The notes under the pieces: model-generated
What the model was told of the DNA's origin: nothing
The model's input: only the letters and a program-made list of their open reading frames with translations
The model's database searches: none
In this document: in pieces, positions 5,301-27,689 of the stretch
How positions within the stretch are numbered: the stretch's first letter is position 1
How the letters are laid out: the number at the start of each line of letters is the position of its first letter
Program-made: the position numbers and the translations under genes
IMG/VR virus record: IMGVR_UViG_3300042377_000223
Location: 1 to 27,689 of that record
DNA length: 27,689 bases
Direction: 5' to 3' (one strand)
DNA from: a virus

Positions 5301-8300
5301 GACAGAACCTTGGTCGCTGTCAGCGGACACAGAGCCAACCTGCTCAGACTGTCTTGTGACTCGCTCCATACCAATATGCGTGTCGATGATAGCCGTGTTC
5401 TCCTTGACCTTGTCAGCCATAACAATGAACACAGTATCGGCACTACCACCATCGTAGACATTCTTGATGACAATGCCATCGTGACCGCCTGCTCTGGCTT
5501 GCTTGAAGATTCTATCGTACTTAGCCCCGTCAAAGCACTCAAAGCCGTAATCGAGTACGAAAGGATTGTTGAACTTAATGGCGGCTCTAACCTGACGATA
5601 GCCCATTTCGCCTTCCTTAGGGTCAGCGTATCCAAACGATGTCTTGGTTTCTCCAGCAAGAAACACGCCAACTCTGTCGTTGGGGTTCATATGGCGAGAA
5701 CCAAGTTTATTAACATCGAACTCCTTGTAGGTCAGAAGTTCATTGGAGTTAGTTCCGTGCGTAGCAACTGTCGTGACTGGTTTTCCTGTCTGGAACTGAG
5801 AATCATACTGGTCACCAAAGAACACCTTAGCCATATTGTCATAACCTGTGGATGTTCGTCTGTGAGTGTTTATGTAGTCAAGAATCACCTGACCATTACG
5901 CTGACCATTTCTTGTTGCTCTTGTGTACGCAAGACGAATGTCGTTATATCTCTGGAGATGAGCAGATACAGCCATCAATTCCTGACGCTTGATGTTTTTC
6001 TTTACAGCGTTAGGTTCTTTAGTCGCATAGAACGCATCCTCAAGTTGTGTCTTTAGTTGTTCAATTTTGCTTACACGAGCCATCACTTGCTCGGTAGCCT
6101 GCATAACTGCTTCGGGCTCAGCCTGACGGAGTTTAATAAAGTTGTCGCTGTAGAACTCCTCACGGGTCTGACGGATTAGTTCCGTACCAGCGTGGAAAGC
6201 CTTGCCAGCGTCAGTCTCAAAGATGTCTCCGATTTCTCTTGCTTTGGCAATAGTCTCATCATCCCAGACCTTAAATGTCTGCTGTTGCTTTTGTTGGTCG
6301 GCAACAACACGCTCAATACGCTTTTCGGTCTCGACACGCTCAGCCGCATAAGCCTTTTCCATCGCCTTTCCAGCGAGGTCTTTGTCCTTAAACGCACCAA
6401 GCATCTTGCCTTCAGCATCGTACAGGTTAGCCGCACCTTGCTTGTCTGCCACAATCTTGTACTTAGAAGCGTGAGTGAACACATCTCCCTGAGGAGTAGC
6501 CTCGTGTTCCATATCGGACACCTTGTAGTTCCTGCTGAGGTCGCTGTGAGCGTTGTCTAAATTGAAGTCGTACCTGATAGGCAGGTCGCTCTTAACAGGA
6601 GACATAAAGTCTATCCGCTGGTTGAAGACTGTCGATGTGTTGCCTCTGGGAATCTCAGCGATAGGAGTGTTGAAATACTTCTCGCTCTTACGCTTAGCCA
6701 TACCAAGGAACTGATGCATTATGTTCCTACGCTCTGCACCAAAGCCATCACCACGAGCGAGGGAAGGAAGCAGGGAGGACTCCTGACGGGTCAGGTCTGT
6801 GCTAGCCTTGCTTGCGTTGCTTAGGTATTCAAAGAACGACTTGTCGAACTCGTTTCTGTCACCCTGCCAGAGGTCTCTAACTTCAGGCTTAGCCCATTGT
6901 TCGTTGCCTCTAGCGTCAATAAGATTCTTGTCTAGACCCTTCATCAGGAGCGACATCGTGCCGTCTTTCTTGACCTTTATTTCGTAGCCGACAACAATCG
7001 TGTTTCTAGAAGTAATAGGAACATCAGCACCATACACTCGCTTGGAGTTCGGGCCAACTTCCAGTTCCATCGAGTCACCCTTATAGAGGTACGAAATTAC
7101 ATTAGAGCCGTTGCCAGAGGTAATCTCTTGGATGTTCTTAATGCGTTCAGCAAGCAAAGGCGTAATGTGACCTTCGTTGACCAAGTGCGTCAGCATCGTG
7201 TCGCTGAATTTAGTTCCAACTGTACTGTTAGCAACAAAACTTCCTTCGACATCCTTCAGTCCAGCAACTTCCTTAGGGTCTAGTTTGGACAGCGAATCGT
7301 GGACAGCCTTGCCAACCTGAATACGCTCTGCCTTAACTTGGTCTTCTGTAAGGTTGCGTCTCTTCCCGTCTTTGTCAAAGTAATGCTTAAACCCGTCCAT
7401 ACCATTACTGTTAAAGAAAGCGGCACGAGCAACTGGCTCAAGCGTTCTGACATCAAACGAGTTGGTGCTACCCTTGCGTTTGCCAGCAACCGAACGCAGG
7501 AGGTCTTGCACCATATAATCAATAGCCGAACTTCTCTGGGCTAGAGTACGCTTGCCGTCATTCGGGCCGAACGACTTATCGAAAGTCTTGTCTCCTGTGA
7601 AGTCTCCGAATGTGGGGTTCTGCTTAGTTACATTCTTCTGCCAGAAGTCTAGGAAGCCGTTGTGCAGTCTGTCCATAACGCCCTGCATACCTGTGTACTC
7701 TGCTCCACGGAACAGATAGTCAACAGGCTTGCCCTTCATAAACTGAGTGGCGTAGTGAGCACCGAACTCTTCAACGAGGTAATCAAGAGCCTTGGCTGAG
7801 TCAGGGTTCATTCTGGCTGTGCTACCAGCCTTTTGGTACTCAGCGAGGTGATTGTCGAACTCAGCAAGGCGTTTAGCGAGTTCAGCAGGAAGTTCAGAAA
7901 GTTTCTTTCCAGTAGTAGGGTCTACTGTGTTTCTGAGTTCTCTTGTTACAAATGCCTTGAACTCCTTAGGGTCAATTTCAGCAGGCTTGACCTTGATGCC
8001 ATTAGCATCGAACTTACCAAGAATAGCCTCAGAAAAGTTATCTCTGAACATTCTCTCCATAACTGTGGTCTTGAACACAGCGTGGAAGATTTCGTGGTGC
8101 ATCACATTCTTGCTTGTAGAGTCTGTGTTGATTACGATAGTAACCTGCTTCTTTCCATTTCCATCTCTTTCCGTGTGCATCACGAATCCTTCACCGCCAA
8201 AGAAACCAGAAAGCGGGGCTTCAAATTGAATAGGCTTTCCGTCCGCACCAAGAAGTTTTGCACCAGTCACAGGGTCAACTTTGTGACCATCAGCATCAAG

Positions 8301-9866
8301 TCCCTTAGACTTAAGGAATGCCGCCTGACCTTGAGCGTTATCAACAATCAAACGCATATCAGGAGCAATGCGGTCAAGGCCAGCAATCACCTGCAAAGCA
8401 CCAGCCCTGTCACCCTTGAGGGTAGCATCAAGAAGGTATGTTTCAGTAGCCGCAAGATTAGGATGCTTGTCGGCTCTCATATTCTCAAGGACAAAACCGC
8501 CTTGAACTTCAGCCCTAGCCATCTTTGTGCCACCAGAAACATCCGCAAAGGCTCGTCCAGCAAGAGCACCAGTACCACCTAAAGCCATACCAGCACCAAT
8601 GCCCTGTCCCATACCTTCTGCACCACCGCTGAGATAGCCAAGACCGCCACCTATGACAGCACCCTGAGCCGCACCTTCAGCCATTCCATAACCATAGGAA
8701 AACATAGGGTCAACGGCATCAAGAACTTTAAGTAATCCCTTAGCGTGTCCAGAAAGGTTAGGGGTCTGAAGGAGAGCCTCCCTAGCAAAAGAGTTATAAC
8801 CACGAGTAAAACCTTGCTTCATTATCTGTTCACCAACAGCACCAGCGGCTTCACCAATGCCAGCCGCCGCACCAGCACCAAGGTAAACATTAGAAATAGT
8901 AGAGGCTACGGGAATATGGCCTCCCATTACGGATGCCGTGGTCGAACCAACAGCGGACATTCTAGCCGTAGCCTGAAGTTCCTTGGTAGACATACCAGTA
9001 GCGGTCTCTAGAACATTGCCGCCAACAGCAATAGCCTTGTCGATAGTTCCTCTCGTTACTGCACCAACAGCCTCAATAGGAGCACCAACACCCCACTTGA
9101 GGCCACCACCAATGACAGATGCCTTCAGCGACTGACTTCTAGCCGCAAGCATAGTGAGTTTTTCGCCCATACCGACAGCCCTCATACCCGCAGAAGCGGC
9201 TGAGCCAAACGGAACAAACAGCGTAGGGTCAGCAATATAAGACATCGCAAGGGTGATGTCCTTGTCGATGACATTCTTATCCATAACAATGGTCTCTTCG
9301 CCTGACGCAAGAGCCGCAGAGTGCTTATTGAATCTTCTGGCTTCTAGGAATTGCTGATAACCCTCCGCAGTACCATCTCCAGCAATAGCGTTCTTAAGAC
9401 CAAAAAGGATGCTGTTAGGGTCGGAACTCTGAGCCACCATACCATAGAGGTTGCGTGTACCCTGTGCAAACGCTTCAATAAGGGACGCAGGGGCTTGAGA
9501 TAGAGCCTTAAGGGGATGGTCAGCAACAGCACCTACAGCCCTTCCTAGGTCATCTAGGACAGCCGATGCACCCGCACCGATACCATCAATGATGCTAGTC
9601 TCTTTAGTCTTGTTGAACGCTACGAACTTCAGGTAATCCGCTTCTTCAGGGACATAGTCTGCGTCTTGCTTGAGAGCCTCGGCAACATCTTCCCCCGTCA
9701 AAGGGGCGTTGATTTCTTCGATAGCCTTCTGGCGTTCCGCTGGGTCTAGTGTATCTAGGAACGCTAGTGTTTCCTGAGAAAACCCAGAAGAGTCCTCAGT
9801 AGGCATAGCACCTGTATTGGCTACTTGCAGTTCGTTGTAAGAGCCTTTGCTGTCAGGGAAGTCCAT
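2316..9866 (-). CDS. Giant polyvalent internal virion/ejection protein (2516 aa)
   Basis: This is the last of four consecutive genes in the order of T7 gp13-14-15-16 and, by position, the counterpart of gp16. Regions that can be seen: Gly/Ala-rich hydrophobic stretches at about 322-345 and 392-440 (glycine-zipper-like, likely membrane insertion during DNA ejection); HEIFH at 591-595, a zinc metallopeptidase signature; an ADP-ribosyltransferase domain at about 1366-1490 starting with HGT (His1370), then GVFLAG, SFGYAD and GHDGI, of the type found in phage polyvalent proteins; a GNAT-like segment at about 1955-2060 with NRGYSKLML at 2018-2026; four acidic repeats around 2280, 2302, 2328 and 2350; and a Pro-rich region at about 2365-2455. 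A [YF]KVSD motif recurs at 1114, 2090 and 2169. I see no lytic transglycosylase motif. Function as an injected effector is inferred. The stop overlaps the holin start. Confidence 0.85.
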   Translation of the reverse strand: MDFPDSKGSYNELQVANTGAMPTEDSSGFSQETLAFLDTLDPAERQKAIEEINAPLTGEDVAEALKQDADYVPEEADYLKFVAFNKTKETSIIDGIGAGASAVLDDLGRAVGAVADHPLKALSQAPASLIEAFAQGTRNLYGMVAQSSDPNSILFGLKNAIAGDGTAEGYQQFLEARRFNKHSAALASGEETIVMDKNVIDKDITLAMSYIADPTLFVPFGSAASAGMRAVGMGEKLTMLAARSQSLKASVIGGGLKWGVGAPIEAVGAVTRGTIDKAIAVGGNVLETATGMSTKELQATARMSAVGSTTASVMGGHIPVASTISNVYLGAGAAAGIGEAAGAVGEQIMKQGFTRGYNSFAREALLQTPNLSGHAKGLLKVLDAVDPMFSYGYGMAEGAAQGAVIGGGLGYLSGGAEGMGQGIGAGMALGGTGALAGRAFADVSGGTKMARAEVQGGFVLENMRADKHPNLAATETYLLDATLKGDRAGALQVIAGLDRIAPDMRLIVDNAQGQAAFLKSKGLDADGHKVDPVTGAKLLGADGKPIQFEAPLSGFFGGEGFVMHTERDGNGKKQVTIVINTDSTSKNVMHHEIFHAVFKTTVMERMFRDNFSEAILGKFDANGIKVKPAEIDPKEFKAFVTRELRNTVDPTTGKKLSELPAELAKRLAEFDNHLAEYQKAGSTARMNPDSAKALDYLVEEFGAHYATQFMKGKPVDYLFRGAEYTGMQGVMDRLHNGFLDFWQKNVTKQNPTFGDFTGDKTFDKSFGPNDGKRTLAQRSSAIDYMVQDLLRSVAGKRKGSTNSFDVRTLEPVARAAFFNSNGMDGFKHYFDKDGKRRNLTEDQVKAERIQVGKAVHDSLSKLDPKEVAGLKDVEGSFVANSTVGTKFSDTMLTHLVNEGHITPLLAERIKNIQEITSGNGSNVISYLYKGDSMELEVGPNSKRVYGADVPITSRNTIVVGYEIKVKKDGTMSLLMKGLDKNLIDARGNEQWAKPEVRDLWQGDRNEFDKSFFEYLSNASKASTDLTRQESSLLPSLARGDGFGAERRNIMHQFLGMAKRKSEKYFNTPIAEIPRGNTSTVFNQRIDFMSPVKSDLPIRYDFNLDNAHSDLSRNYKVSDMEHEATPQGDVFTHASKYKIVADKQGAANLYDAEGKMLGAFKDKDLAGKAMEKAYAAERVETEKRIERVVADQQKQQQTFKVWDDETIAKAREIGDIFETDAGKAFHAGTELIRQTREEFYSDNFIKLRQAEPEAVMQATEQVMARVSKIEQLKTQLEDAFYATKEPNAVKKNIKRQELMAVSAHLQRYNDIRLAYTRATRNGQRNGQVILDYINTHRRTSTGYDNMAKVFFGDQYDSQFQTGKPVTTVATHGTNSNELLTYKEFDVNKLGSRHMNPNDRVGVFLAGETKTSFGYADPKEGEMGYRQVRAAIKFNNPFVLDYGFECFDGAKYDRIFKQARAGGHDGIVIKNVYDGGSADTVFIVMADKVKENTAIIDTHIGMERVTRQSEQVGSVSADSDQGSVRYPIQESLPRGKDVRIGTGIGLSWKVDDTTPEARVVPSVLVKNMGAELLQKGIDEKKIELSDSYKGLNIGRLKGIAHTADTMAVGELKINAKTVENLQGGMFFHMLHGDLADFWASTFAGEGESSVLVKWMNEAIKVNGRKFGQSESFITLVKPDNDKIFQSPTGTKSVLQILDHLVENGAMSPETLKQHLIDASMDKYVSGKKKGSDKQKISFDETESYRSLMEQALEELPTHSFENRKLFIESLFSKIAKSKEISGNAYLKMREAIGGKSWNAKNTSKFTAAEANRVFGDLLAEPMIRDVPKGHAYAVIKIKSPIAEKVDSGLHESYRSTVVQTSGEKPVMSIMTKTAPAWEIVNNAKNQRIQEYNKARKMSYVNELGGSQNPYAKVVAKPSEYMPFKVEDLAGEPRDGGRTYEVGSQQWKTGFLGRIAEKDPAKIEGMELRYSENTRIIKGKNLVTLTLHNKAGQQVGILNADVYNDGTAKIVDTQVPEQFGNRGYSKLMLSEFGERVRSQGVKEVFGEVVDTEGRPIKARKSVFGNAEFGEEDSSNISISGRTTISKLDQSARYKVSDEQVAQVQEKVDYLKGLMDRYERFKDAKGRENSDNKRRYWDAKREYNNLNEYTLKPMLAEKQKDTKPDLKPFEGNFKVSDSVKSGVRTLGKFIDDNADTANLSPDIKNAMKALREAVRRQDATDEVLVPEVREAYDKIVAAVDNGIATPAFTPVAVLKELKKTLKPLNKEISQNSKDTAKRIADRDMAEGADLESDAIAEGKATARRDMEEGASLESDQVTAEIDRKRGEARLDMEEGASLDADEATGRIGEVVQDLNDGADIEASEPRNQNLPKQFPYPAPPAPAGLPSYKPSGTPAFPRPPATPPLPSVKPSGTPAFPRPPATPALPRGSIAPPPPQGTPAPAGTPFPNLPPSKPMGKLEGWRGWTLEKGLNGGFWKNAVGWMIVVQGDKFKVYNPQKAMQGIYEDLEAAKRRVQRAEPKQ

Positions 9867-24257: not shown

Positions 24258-24423
24258 TTAAATATTTGGCGAGGTCATCACGGAAGTACCTCTTATGACC
24301 ACCTTTGGTGGTGAATGTTCGTACTTGCCCCTTTTTGGCAAGCGACTCAAGTCTTATCCGTCCAATATTAGCGAATAGCATCGCTTTCTGACGAGACAAG
24401 AGAGTTGGGTAGTAGATTTCCAT
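24238..24423 (-). CDS. MerR/excisionase-like winged-helix protein between TerL and portal (61 aa)
   Basis: Residues 9-57 fit the small HTH_17/excisionase-like family: a first helix (SRQKAMLFANIGRIRLESL), then KKGQVRTFTTKGGHKRYFRD, whose G-G-H-K-R-Y-F is the usual wing signature, then DLAKYLNEIL. It probably binds DNA. Its ATG shares a base with the TerL stop (TAATG) and its 3' end overlaps the portal start by 20 bases, so all three are linked. A DNA-binding protein at this place could mark the packaging site (small terminase role) or regulate late genes; both are inference. A -1 frameshift at a G-run near the TerL end would fuse it to TerL. Confidence 0.7.
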   Translation of the reverse strand: MEIYYPTLLSRQKAMLFANIGRIRLESLAKKGQVRTFTTKGGHKRYFRDDLAKYLNEILQN

Positions 24424-26030
24424 TAGTATCCACCGCCCCCCCAGCCCTTCATAGAGTCATTTCCCTGATATTCAGGATTCATAGTCATAAGATATCGCAG
24501 GCAGTCGATAGGGTCTTTGGTTGCACCTTTATCTCCGTCCTGACCTGTCCACTCTTTAAGGCAGTAGATTAGGTTTTCACAAGATTCGGCTATATAAAGC
24601 CTAGGCTTATTAATAGGGCTTATCTCTTGATTGTAATCGTAGGCAAATCCGTCATTAATCATTGCCACTCCCTGCTCGATGCGGATTCCAGCGGCAGGCT
24701 GAAAGTGCATAGGGTTTTCACCACTATCAAGCATTTCTATAAGGGTAGTGCCGCCATCATCGGTGACAGCCTTAGTACCGCCTGCACGAGGGTCGATGTA
24801 ACGCTCCCAAATCTGTTCGCCATTTTCCAAATCAAGAATTAATTGCTTGTAGTCAGCCAGAGACCGCCCAGCCCCGTTTCTTTGGGCTGTCCCTGCCTTC
24901 CCGTCAGGGTCGCTAGAGGGCAATGCCCATTCTCCATCTGAAGTGTCAGGGAACTCCCTGTAGACATATATATTTCCTTCCTCGTCTACTCTAGCCCAAA
25001 GCATAAACCAGTTTCTTGCACCAGCAGGGTCGGTAATGAAGTAGTTTGTACCCTCGGCAGGCACAGCCTCATCTTTGACGATGTTCACCTCAGGACTGAA
25101 ACGAGGAAACTGAGACCCGCTTACATTGTCAGCCCAACCATAAGCACGAATCTTAATTTCATAAGATTTCTTTCCAGACAAGGTTTTTTTAAGATTCTCA
25201 AATGGATTATACGGATTGAGTTGGCTGTGAAACCACATCACGGCAGAGGAGCGATTAAATGATTTAGCCTTGTACGGCATATGACCCCTCGGGCATCCCA
25301 TTACATTCTGAGAATCAGGTAGCAAAGGAGATGCAAGGGTCTCAGTAATCTTAGCACCGCTGACATATTCCTTAACAACAGAACTGTAGCCAGAGATAGG
25401 AGTAAAAGTGACAACCATCTTGCCCATACGGGTAACGGCACGATAGCGGAGTGTCTCAACCCAGTCTAGCGGCACAAGTTCATCACACCAGATGAAGTCC
25501 ACTTCACCACCTTCAATGACATCTCGCTTCTGAGCGTAGTTCATAAAGAAGCATTGGCTTTTGTTCGGAAGAATAAAGGTGTTGTCTGAGAACCCGTTTT
25601 TCTGCGTATACTGCACATTTTGCACCTTGTTCTTTCGGAGTTCCTTAAACTCTGAAGGCAGGTACTTGTAGATGACATTCTGTTGCATCTGGATACTCGA
25701 TTGATTCGTAGTATGCAGACACCACACACGGGCATCCTTAATATTGATAAGCGTCTGAACGACTCTTTTAGCCGCCCATTCCGTTTTGGACGCTCGGTTA
25801 CCACCAAGGATGAGAACTTCGTTGTTCTCCTTTAGCAACTGGTCTGCTTCCTTCCAATGTGGTAAATCGAACCCGTGCCTATATGGGTCAAGTTTTTCTG
25901 CGAGGATTTTATCCTCACGCAAGGTCAGAATCTCTGCGGTCTTCTCAGCCCCTACCTTTTCAGCCAAACGCCTAATCTCCTCCTGAGTCGGAGTGACAAG
26001 AATAGGGTGAGGGGTAGGAGTGAAAGCCAT
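24423..26030 (-). CDS. Terminase large subunit (TerL, 535 aa)
   Basis: The ATPase domain has a Walker A variant GGNRASKT at 76-83 (Lys82), Walker B DFIWCDE at 178-184 (Asp183, Glu184), and a coupling motif VVTFTP at 206-211. The nuclease domain shows candidate metal ligands at Asp334 (FITDPAG), Asp413 (YIDPRAGG) and Asp509 (DPIDCLRYL), the usual three-acidic-residue RNase H-like arrangement. Together these package and cut concatemeric DNA. The C-terminus is short and Gly-rich (GWGGGGY), encoded over a run of seven G. The ATG follows GAACTGAT with no Shine-Dalgarno sequence. Length is typical for TerL. Confidence 0.92.
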   Translation of the reverse strand: MAFTPTPHPILVTPTQEEIRRLAEKVGAEKTAEILTLREDKILAEKLDPYRHGFDLPHWKEADQLLKENNEVLILGGNRASKTEWAAKRVVQTLINIKDARVWCLHTTNQSSIQMQQNVIYKYLPSEFKELRKNKVQNVQYTQKNGFSDNTFILPNKSQCFFMNYAQKRDVIEGGEVDFIWCDELVPLDWVETLRYRAVTRMGKMVVTFTPISGYSSVVKEYVSGAKITETLASPLLPDSQNVMGCPRGHMPYKAKSFNRSSAVMWFHSQLNPYNPFENLKKTLSGKKSYEIKIRAYGWADNVSGSQFPRFSPEVNIVKDEAVPAEGTNYFITDPAGARNWFMLWARVDEEGNIYVYREFPDTSDGEWALPSSDPDGKAGTAQRNGAGRSLADYKQLILDLENGEQIWERYIDPRAGGTKAVTDDGGTTLIEMLDSGENPMHFQPAAGIRIEQGVAMINDGFAYDYNQEISPINKPRLYIAESCENLIYCLKEWTGQDGDKGATKDPIDCLRYLMTMNPEYQGNDSMKGWGGGGY

Positions 26031-26099
26031 ATCAGTTCTTGGAATGGGATATCATCGTCATCATCTTCTTCGATGTCGTTTGGGTCTCCCATAGCATTG

Positions 26100-26231
26100 T
26101 CACTTCTTGCCCTTGGTTTTGTACTTGCAAGGCTTCATCGGCTTAGAGCCAGCCTTGTAGGAGACTCTCTCTCGCTCCATCTTACGCATCTGCTTACCTT
26201 CGCCCTTTTCGTGTCTAGATTCGTTTTTCAT
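26100..26231 (-). CDS. Very small basic protein upstream of TerL (43 aa)
   Basis: The frame starts MKNESRHEKGEGKQMRKMER and ends with KYKTKGKK before a TGA at 26100-26102. Sixteen of 43 residues are Lys or Arg and five are Glu. It could bind nucleic acid or a capsid partner, but no family is recognised. It is placed between the HTH protein and TerL and would otherwise leave a gap. An A/T-rich palindromic leader (TTAAAAAATTTTTAA-like, 26238-26254) precedes it. Its reality rests on position and composition only. Confidence 0.45.
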   Translation of the reverse strand: MKNESRHEKGEGKQMRKMERERVSYKAGSKPMKPCKYKTKGKK

Positions 26232-26255
26232 AGTCTGGTTTAAAAATTTTTTAGT

Positions 26256-26654
26256 TTAGTACTTCCCGTTGAACCGAGGGTGTCGCACGACAACCCATCG
26301 TGCTCCATCCCATCGTACATCGGCAGGCATACCGATACCGAATTTGGAAGAGTCACGGCAGATGACATTGTGTTCCTTGCCGTTAATGAGGACGCTGATG
26401 ACACGGGGGTTGCGGTGCTTAGCGGACACAGTACCCGAGGCTTGTTTGGGGGACTCAACGACTTCCGTGGGCTTAACGCCGAGGTGTTCACGCAGTAGGG
26501 CGATGCCTTCTGGAGTCCACTCAATCTGCCAGAGGTTTTCGGGTTTGAGCGAGGGAATCTTCTTCCAGCACTTTCCCGACTCAAAAAATGAACGCATCTC
26601 CTTCAAGATGTCACGAGATATACCAAGAGCGATGCAGAGTTCCTTTTCCTTCAT
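26256..26654 (-). CDS. HTH protein, terminase small subunit candidate (132 aa)
   Basis: I take the ATG at 26654 (MKEKELCIALGISRDILKEM); a TTG at 26690 would extend it by 12 residues, but this TTG is part of a TTGACA that could be a promoter -35 element. Residues 1-26 contain a helix-turn-helix pattern (ALGISRDILKEMR), followed by a second helical segment (LWQIEWTPEGIALLREHLG). After a Ser/Pro-rich linker the C-terminal half is a beta-rich domain (RVISVLINGKEHNVICRDSS and VRWDGARWVVVRHP). Being the first protein gene of the late string, just before TerL, it is the natural small terminase candidate, though the C-terminal domain is not one I recognise from small terminases. Confidence 0.6.
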   Translation of the reverse strand: MKEKELCIALGISRDILKEMRSFFESGKCWKKIPSLKPENLWQIEWTPEGIALLREHLGVKPTEVVESPKQASGTVSAKHRNPRVISVLINGKEHNVICRDSSKFGIGMPADVRWDGARWVVVRHPRFNGKY

Positions 26655-26714
26655 AGGAGCATTAGGAATGCTTATGCTGGGGGCTGTCAAGCCGTTTCTC
26701 TACAAATCGTAATA

Positions 26715-26788
26715 TAGGGGCGGGGGGAGTCGAACCCACCGACTTAAGCCTTATAAAGACTCCACTCTAACCGCTGAGTTACGCCCCC
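26715..26788 (-). tRNA. tRNA-Ile (anticodon UAU)
   Basis: On the minus strand the acceptor GGGGGCG pairs with CGCCCCT (one G-U at the end), the D-arm is ACTC/GAGT with a GG in the loop, the anticodon arm is GAGTC-TTTATAA-GGCTT, and the T-arm has TTCGACT in the loop with one mismatch. The loop places TAT at positions 34-36, which reads AUA. CCA is not encoded; the discriminator is A. The variable region is six bases, one more than usual. An anticodon of UAU is less common than the modified CAU used by most bacteria for AUA. Confidence 0.85.
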
Positions 26789-26793
26789 CAAAG

Positions 26794-26864
26794 AAGACCC
26801 GCAGGGACTTGAACCCCGACAAGGAGTACCAAAAACTCCTGTGCTACCATTACACCACGGGTCT
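26794..26864 (-). tRNA. tRNA-Gln (anticodon UUG)
   Basis: The acceptor AGACCCG pairs with CGGGTCT; the D-arm is GTGT/GCAC with TAATGGTAG in the loop; the anticodon arm GGAGT-TTTTGGT-ACTCC is fully paired and places TTG at 34-36; the T-arm CGGGG/CCCTG encloses TTCAAGT. CCA is not encoded and the discriminator is T. It decodes CAA. It lies 5 bases from the tRNA-Ile gene, so the two are very likely cut from one transcript. Confidence 0.92.
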
Positions 26865-26871
26865 GAAAACG

Positions 26872-26910
26872 ACTGTCCTAGAGAAACCATTGTCAAGAGG
26901 GCAGGACAGT
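26872..26910. repeat. Inverted repeat between tRNA-Gln and tRNA-Arg
   Basis: Two 8-base arms, ACTGTCCT (26872-26879) and AGGACAGT (26903-26910), are perfectly complementary around a 23-base spacer that contains CTCTTGACAATGG on the minus strand. In RNA this would be an 8-bp stem between two tRNAs. It may be a processing signal or the scar of a tRNA deletion. Confidence 0.45.
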
Positions 26911-26917
26911 ACTAAAC

Positions 26918-26989
26918 TCGACCCTCCAAGAATCGAACTTGGATGACCCGCTTAGAAGGCGGGTGTTCTATCCGTTGAACTAAGGGTCG
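26918..26989 (-). tRNA. tRNA-Arg (anticodon UCU)
   Basis: The acceptor CGACCCT pairs with AGGGTCG; the D-arm is GTTC/GAAC with an AACGGATA loop; the anticodon arm CCCGC-CTTCTAA-GCGGG is fully paired with TCT at 34-36; the T-arm CCAAG/CTTGG encloses TTCGATT. The discriminator is A and CCA is not encoded. It decodes AGA. All arms are perfect, so this is a confident call. Confidence 0.95.
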
Positions 26990-27110
26990 TAAATAGGGGG
27001 TGGGTAGGATTTTAGCCCTACCGATGGATATTGGTTAATCAGTTTACGCTATTATGCCATTATGACCTGTATTAACATTTACTCACATCCTCTGGTTATC
27101 CAGAGCACCC
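26990..27110 (-). other. Structured stretch with tRNA-like T-arm, possible decayed tRNA
   Basis: On the minus strand GGTAGG-GCTAAAAT-CCTACC forms a 6-bp arm at the spacing of a T-arm, but the loop lacks the invariant TTC. Upstream is a D-arm-like CATAATGGCATAATAGCG, and no matching acceptor is found nearby. Further upstream a perfect 6-bp hairpin CTCTGG-ATAA-CCAGAG (27090-27105) is present. It lies between tRNA-Arg and tRNA-Thr, so a decayed or rearranged tRNA gene is the simplest reading; a small structured RNA is the alternative. Confidence 0.35.
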
Positions 27111-27116
27111 AAAGAG

Positions 27117-27188
27117 AGCCTTGTGTTGGGATTGAACCAACGACCTACAGTTTACAAAACTGTCGCACTACCGCTGTGCTAACAAGGC
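27117..27188 (-). tRNA. tRNA-Thr (anticodon UGU)
   Basis: The acceptor GCCTTGT pairs with ACAAGGC; the D-arm is GCAC/GTGC with AGCGGTA in the loop; the anticodon arm ACAGT-TTTGTAA-ACTGT is fully paired with TGT at 34-36; the T-arm GTTGG/CCAAC encloses TTCAATC. The discriminator is T and CCA is not encoded. It decodes ACA. It is the first tRNA transcribed from the leftward promoter region. Confidence 0.95.
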
Positions 27189-27233
27189 AAAGACTTCGCT
27201 CGTTGAGACTCGCTTGTTTATTCAATGAACAGG

Positions 27234-27264
27234 CTTATATTCATAGAGAATCCTTTAGAGTCAA
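27234..27264 (-). promoter_or_regulatory. Possible sigma70-like promoter for tRNA and late genes
   Basis: On the minus strand TTGACT (27259-27264) is followed after 19 bases by TATAAG (27234-27239). The spacing is longer than the ideal 17, but an A/T-rich tract (ATTTAAATTTTATTA) lies just upstream of the -35, as an UP element would. It would start transcription just before tRNA-Thr. It is the best candidate seen, not a proven one. Confidence 0.35.
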
Positions 27265-27295
27265 TAATAAAATTTAAATCCCTTCCCCCAGAATT

Positions 27296-27335
27296 GGGGG
27301 ACTGAGGGGGTGAACAACAGGGGGTACATAGGGGG
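27296..27335 (+). repeat. Four G5 tracts, potential G-quadruplex
   Basis: Four runs of exactly five G occur at 27296-27300, 27306-27310, 27320-27324 and 27331-27335, with spacers of 5, 9 and 6 bases. This fits an intramolecular G-quadruplex on the plus strand. The first run can instead pair with CCCCC at 27285-27289 (loop AGAATT), so two structures compete. It is in the non-coding control region. Confidence 0.6.
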
Positions 27336-27386
27336 ATTCCAAATGGATGCGTCAAGCAGAATCGGCTTTTATTTCATATACATCAA

Positions 27387-27411
27387 AAGAGTGCTTGACA
27401 CAAGCCCTTTT
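27387..27411. terminator. Bidirectional terminator-like hairpin
   Basis: The arms AAGAGTGCTTG and CAAGCCCTTTT pair around the loop ACA, with one mismatch and one G-T pair in 11 positions. An A-run lies on the left and a T-run on the right, so it could stop transcription from both sides. It lies in the non-coding region. The three-base loop and short T-run make it weaker than a classic terminator; an operator is possible. Confidence 0.35.
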
Positions 27412-27689
27412 AACCTCCCCTAATAACCCCTCTCCTCGCTCGTACTTCTGTCCTTCGTACTCGCTATAGTCTTATTGTGATAAAAAAAGTGTCTGGACAG
27501 ACCCGTATGGTTCTGGCCGCAGAAAATAAAGTAAGACCCCCTCCCCCCGTCTAGTAGAAAGTAAAAGAAAAGTAAACAGGCTTCTTATATAGAGTGAAGG
27601 GCTGGATGGTAAAACGGGTTCAGTCAGTCTATAATATATCTAGTAGAAGATGAGAATGGATTGAGAATACAGCCGAATCAATTGGATAG

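Follow-up and report, generated by a model that had tools for sequence, protein, structure and literature searches.

The array of four G5 runs at 27296-27335 in the window (a 27,689-base IMG/VR virus fragment) is real and conserved, and it is the template strand of a promoter-like control region. We tentatively favour, at a little short of an even chance, a reading in which this region is bidirectional and precedes a tRNA-terS-terL-structural gene block, and in which the array serves as template strand for an accessory promoter cassette made up of P1 and a leader hairpin. At the level of sequence, comparison with relatives shows the arrangement of the elements, its conservation and the covariation of the hairpin. 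The features concerned are as follows:

24423-26030, minus strand: putative large terminase subunit gene terL (Terminase_6N match below the curated cut-off; similar to annotated TerL proteins)
26256-26690, minus strand: 144-aa ORF in the terS position, conserved in relatives, its function assigned from position
26715-26989, minus strand: tRNA-Arg(tct), tRNA-Gln(ttg) and tRNA-Ile(tat)
27116-27188, minus strand: tRNA-Thr(tgt), the first gene downstream of P1/P2
27222-27230, minus strand: boxA-like GTTCATTGA, at about +1 of P2
27236-27241, minus strand: P2 -10-like AATATA
27259-27264, minus strand: P2 -35-like TTGACT
27284-27301, minus strand: leader hairpin TCCCCCA-ATTC-TGGGGGA, in the predicted P1 leader
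27285-27335, minus strand: C-run array plus GGGGG
27285-27289, plus strand: CCCCC (G-run GGGGG on the minus strand)
27296-27300, 27306-27310, 27320-27324 and 27331-27335: array runs r4, r3, r2 and r1, each G5 on the plus strand and a C-run on the minus strand
27325-27330, minus strand: P1 -10-like TATGTA, 19 nt from the -35-like hexamer, with C5 on both sides
27350-27355, minus strand: P1 -35-like TTGACG, its TTGAC invariant in relatives
27395-27430, plus strand: P1', divergent copy (TTGACA 27395-27400, 20 nt, TAATAA 27421-27426, CCCC on both sides)
27471-27495, plus strand: CTTATTGTGATAAAAAAAGTGTCTG, a conserved T-tract/A-tract element downstream of P1'
27537-27548, minus strand: second motif GGGGGGAGGGGG, followed by TC, downstream of P1'

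The initial annotation had placed the four G5 runs, the CCCCC at 27285-27289 and a minus-strand G6-A-G5 at 27537-27548 exactly where they are found here. It had also held that four exact G5 runs within 40 bases are extremely unlikely by chance, which is borne out: four disjoint G5 runs within 41 bases occurred in none of 1000 dinucleotide shuffles of the window and in none of 5000 shuffles of its last 1 kb, the maximum being three in each case. Counted over the whole window, however, G5/C5 runs are about as numerous as expected (34 vs 34.9). The first three runs, with their exact spacers, are found again in five other IMG/VR contigs. The array is the sole site in the window with four runs of at least four G and loops of up to 12, and it matches the sequence motif for an intramolecular G-quadruplex (four G-runs of at least three, with short loops). 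Its potential to form such a structure is indeed high by sequence score, as had been proposed, with a G4Hunter mean of 1.95 over its 40 bases; its best 25-base G4Hunter window ranks third in the whole window.

These four runs and this score would suit a functional intramolecular G-quadruplex on the plus strand, competing with the C5/G5 hairpin and serving as a transcription roadblock or promoter switch, and every run retains at least four G in 32 of the 33 distinct versions of the array that were compared. Run lengths nevertheless drift among those 33. Run 3 has a length of 5 or 6, and both run 4 and the single G-run are always five, but runs 1 and 2 range from 3 to 6, and in three relatives the distance between runs 3 and 4 is 23-29 nt instead of 5 nt. 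All four runs reach at least five in just 16 of the 33, with synteny kept, which is largely the pattern that the initial annotation had named as telling against its proposal. Conservation limited to run and loop lengths, as a functional G-quadruplex would show, is not what the relatives display: the non-G spacers TCAGT and TTCA are conserved, as is the -35-like TTGAC. The divergent P1' retains a C-flanked hexamer with just two local runs, and in distant relatives G-runs lie on the opposite strand, on the terS side. Because the twin P1' and the run-length drift both argue against it, the G-quadruplex is probably not what selection sees, and we consider it a rather unlikely functional element; an accessory promoter cassette that is read by its sequence appears to fit better. 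Short inserts separate C-runs 3 and 4 in L024, L052, L054, L055 and L058, and are hairpin-like in L024, L052 and L058.

The anatomy of the control region was derived from an alignment of relatives, read in the minus-strand sense, which is that of the tRNA and terminase genes. The upstream half consists of TTGAC, 18-21 nt and TANTAA/TATGTA with a C-run on each side, usually followed by a G at the expected start, often by TTCA, and then by CCCCCTCAGTCCCCC-loop-GGGGGAAGGGATTT; in the window the hairpin segment, CCCCCTCAGTCCCCC-loop-GGGGG, lies between P1 and P2. Next come TTGACT, about 17 nt, a GATAA-like hexamer, GTTC[TA]TTGA and the tRNA. TTGAC occurs 41-46 nt upstream of run 3 in all 28 distinct hairpin-anchored loci (background 0.0016 per base). 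TTGAC and TA are separated by 20 nt in 24 of 33 distinct elements and by 18-21 nt in every one of them, TTGAC having been required by the pattern that gave these elements, and the sequence of the P1 spacer varies despite this near-constant distance. Such a combination of near-fixed distance and free spacer sequence is promoter-like, and the predicted P1 start would fall near 27318 on the minus strand.

P1 and P1' depart from the sigma-70 consensus (TTGACA, 16-18 nt, TATAAT), their spacers being mostly 19-20 nt, and the -10-like hexamers TAATAA, TATGTA and TAGAAC lack the final T of TATAAT; a simple sigma-70 scan detected neither P1 nor P2. A sigma-32 heat-shock promoter, for which CTTGA...CCCC is tempting, is not claimed, the distance from -35 to the AT of the -10 being 2-3 nt longer than in the groE and dnaK P1 promoters. 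At the end of contig L045, P1 occurs in an inverted copy, possibly an assembly artefact.

The predicted P1 leader contains runs 3 and 4, the latter paired with the single G5. The pairing of a G5 run with CCCCC, already noted in the initial annotation, is upheld: across 14 distinct variants the 7-bp helix shows 100% pairing, with compensatory changes of the closing pair among A-U, U-A and G-C. The hairpin exceeds every shuffle both in cells paired and in covariation score; kinship of the sequences inflates tests of this kind, but slid controls score clearly lower. An outer CCC:GGG helix was also considered and was rejected for want of supporting covariation. The hairpin does not have the form of an intrinsic terminator, since in most relatives it is followed by GGGGGAAGGGATTTAAAT and similar sequences with no direct U-tract, and a terminator scan did not call it.

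Downstream of the hairpin, a second TTGAC is present in 27 of the 28 distinct hairpin-anchored loci, and 22 of the 28 have the boxA-like GTTC[TA]TTGA, beginning at a constant 34-35 nt from the first base of the P2 TTGAC. A tag at so constant a distance is again promoter-like. The array lies in a conserved noncoding region preceding a tRNA, the terS-position ORF and terL, in agreement with the control-region location first proposed for it. The same minus-strand block goes on to an ORF of 726 aa, located where the portal gene would be, and to head genes. Rfam searches, which covered positions 26000-27689 of the window itself, gave just tRNAs at gathering score. In L063 the same slot (7889-9095) holds ten tRNA genes. 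Relatives of the terminase are abundant in IMG/VR; the nearest named phage by terminase is C75C1 (OQ984151), merely 34% identical, and among annotated features the named phages similar by DNA matched in tRNAs alone.

The divergent twin, P1', starts 40 bp from P1 and points the opposite way; in relatives the two divergent TTGAC sequences are mostly 40-57 bp apart. C-runs flank the P1' hexamer too, where just two runs lie together. A database scan for the divergent P1' form returned 53 stretches, and a terminase relative was present in 24 of the 33 loci tested from that scan, many at 58-69% identity. In whole related genomes a broader P1' pattern is mostly confined to this region. The T-tract/A-tract element and C5NC6 recur downstream of P1' in an alignment selected partly on such features. 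A dyad, GCTTG-ACA-CAAGC, covers the P1' -35 at 27393-27405 of the window, and related TTGACNCAAG forms occur in several relatives. In one 88,287-base contig (L007/L145), about 45 kb separates two control regions that differ from each other; the contig probably represents two joined phage genomes.

The C5 motifs could instead be spaced sites bound by a repressor or activator of the phage, in which case the promoter geometry would be incidental. In favour of this, successive C-runs in the window begin at intervals of 10-14 bp, and C-runs persist in several P1' copies that carry CCCCCATACCCC in place of the hexamer. Their spacing differs between relatives, however, and it is TTGAC that is invariant and held at a near-fixed distance; we therefore regard this explanation as unlikely.

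The accessory character of the favoured cassette is indicated by its distribution. The full element was found by a strict pattern in 26 of 38 contigs having 3 kb upstream of terL, including 13 of 13 with TerL identity of at least 82%; L047 also carries it. L066, L068 and L069 are without P1, array and hairpin and retain P1', a TTGAC at about the P2 distance, the boxA-like GTTCTTTGA and tRNA-Thr; L040 and L051 likewise are without P1, array and hairpin. Because the array is absent from relatives that keep the downstream site and the tRNAs, it is best described as belonging to a cassette that is accessory; relatives that lack it appear to manage with P2 alone.

Absence from some relatives would also be consistent with a REP-like dispersed bacterial palindrome, captured and domesticated before the operon. 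Like REP/BIME elements, the hairpin unit combines a palindrome and a conserved tag at one of its ends. The form CCCCC-N5-CCCCC-loop-GGGGG is high-copy in some bacterial genomes, and its spacers there, TCAGT, TCAAT and TCACT, also occur in the phages; in the phylum sampled a genome gave up to 212 raw matches (overlaps included), compared with at most 15 for the reversed control. Of 100 genomes drawn from one phylum, however, the single one with the TCAGT form was the one selected for having it; the common core is so short that convergence is possible, and in the phages the unit stands in the same place with P1. A captured repeat accordingly seems distinctly improbable to us.

The initial annotation had suggested replication start as one role of the array. 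If the control region were a replication origin, with divergent primer promoters and an AT-rich unwinding region, the TATAATA-rich stretch that adjoins it in several relatives might be the latter. The iterons in an O gene that mark a lambda-type origin are, however, found in an O-like gene elsewhere and not in the control region: in the O-like initiator gene of G003 there are three iterons of 21 nt at a 23-bp spacing, and G012 has repeats of this kind in the equivalent position, an arrangement like that of lambda. Iterons in or at the O-like gene make a lambda-type origin likely in both genomes. Replication thus probably starts elsewhere than in the array region, that suggestion becomes less likely, and an origin here is very improbable. 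The iterons of L111:3272-3338 (G003) and L120:2099-2166 (G012) are three in each case, 21-23 nt long, of the GGCAATTTTTTGCC-CCCC type and spaced 22-23 bp.

The second motif, present also at L282:3062-3074, is the most deeply conserved element of the control region, deeper than the array. In an unselected check of 56 loci, covering up to 4.2 kb upstream of terL, G5-9 N G5-9 was present on the terL-sense strand in 48, usually once and usually with TC next, and on the opposite strand in 21, some of them in GC-rich genomes. C75C1 has the motif (GGGGGGGAGGGGGTC) without the array, which suggests that the motif is the older of the two. Its place upstream of terL in 48 of the 56 loci, even where the terminase is as distant as in C75C1 (34% identical) and L133 (37%), might mean that the control region, and above all this motif, is a packaging signal (cos or pac) upstream of terS. 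Thirteen contigs, the window included, end within 280 b upstream of the motif, a dense accumulation, but their ends are spread over 7-276 b with no single position, near-complete contigs read through the control region, and assemblies also break at AT-rich and G-rich DNA. Packaging would in addition leave the array unexplained, some packaging-competent relatives being without it. As an account of the control region it has, in our view, little likelihood; it is more plausible for the second motif, which might be a packaging site, than for the array.

For the accessory promoter cassette, we infer the identity of the promoters, their start sites, the regulator, the part played by torsion and the role of the hairpin from the arrangement described above. 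Most likely, host polymerase by itself would use P1 and P1' poorly, given their long spacer (about 19-20 nt) and the C-runs on either side of the -10, and help from a phage regulator or from torsion of the template is proposed to be needed. Torsion arising between the divergent P1 and P1' would be a possible aid, an idea weakened by the report that spacer length has only a minor effect on supercoiling sensitivity (PMC8695583). The leader hairpin may act on the new transcript by 5' stabilisation, pausing or antitermination, before transcription would proceed through P2 and the boxA-like tag and reach the tRNAs and the structural genes. A more speculative extension, which we hold to be doubtful, is that CCCC-TANTAA-CCCC with TTGAC about 19-20 nt upstream defines a new class of phage promoter, arranged as a divergent pair and used by host polymerase only with a phage factor, the G-rich template and leader hairpin forming a switch between early and late transcription.

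The phage group is uncultured and almost devoid of annotated relatives. For it, the region provides a first candidate for a switch that governs expression of the tRNA and structural genes, together with a natural presence/absence series of the cassette among relatives; the second motif is in addition a candidate site for packaging or regulation. The promoter architecture would be unusual if the C-flanked -10 is in fact used. A text search of the literature for the core sequence returned unrelated papers only, and none was found on late promoters with boxA and tRNA.

Compared with known systems, the control region is ordinary in kind and unusual in detail. Bacterial rRNA operons have tandem P1/P2 promoters with boxA. 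Like them, the phage region has tandem promoter-like sites, a GC-rich stretch after the first -10, a boxA-like tag and RNA genes in first place; unlike them, it has 18-21 nt from TTGAC to TA, C-runs flanking the -10, a leader hairpin and a divergent twin. Phage late control regions include lambda pR'-Q and the put RNA hairpins of HK022. As in these, a promoter-like site precedes the late block and an RNA hairpin follows immediately, but no Q or put sequence was identified in the phage region, and its hairpin is without a consistent U-tract after it. REP/BIME elements (PMC3733652, PMC2817692) share with the hairpin unit a short palindrome preceded by a conserved tag, and some bacterial repeats share its C5-N5-C5...G5 form; the text of PMC3733652 contains no C5 or G5 run, and the phage unit differs in having one fixed copy per phage and a promoter-like site. 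Finally, unlike the window, C75C1 is without C-run array, P1 cassette and leader hairpin, and like the window it carries the second motif, as GGGGGGGAGGGGGTC located 939 b upstream of its terL and followed by TTGACA.
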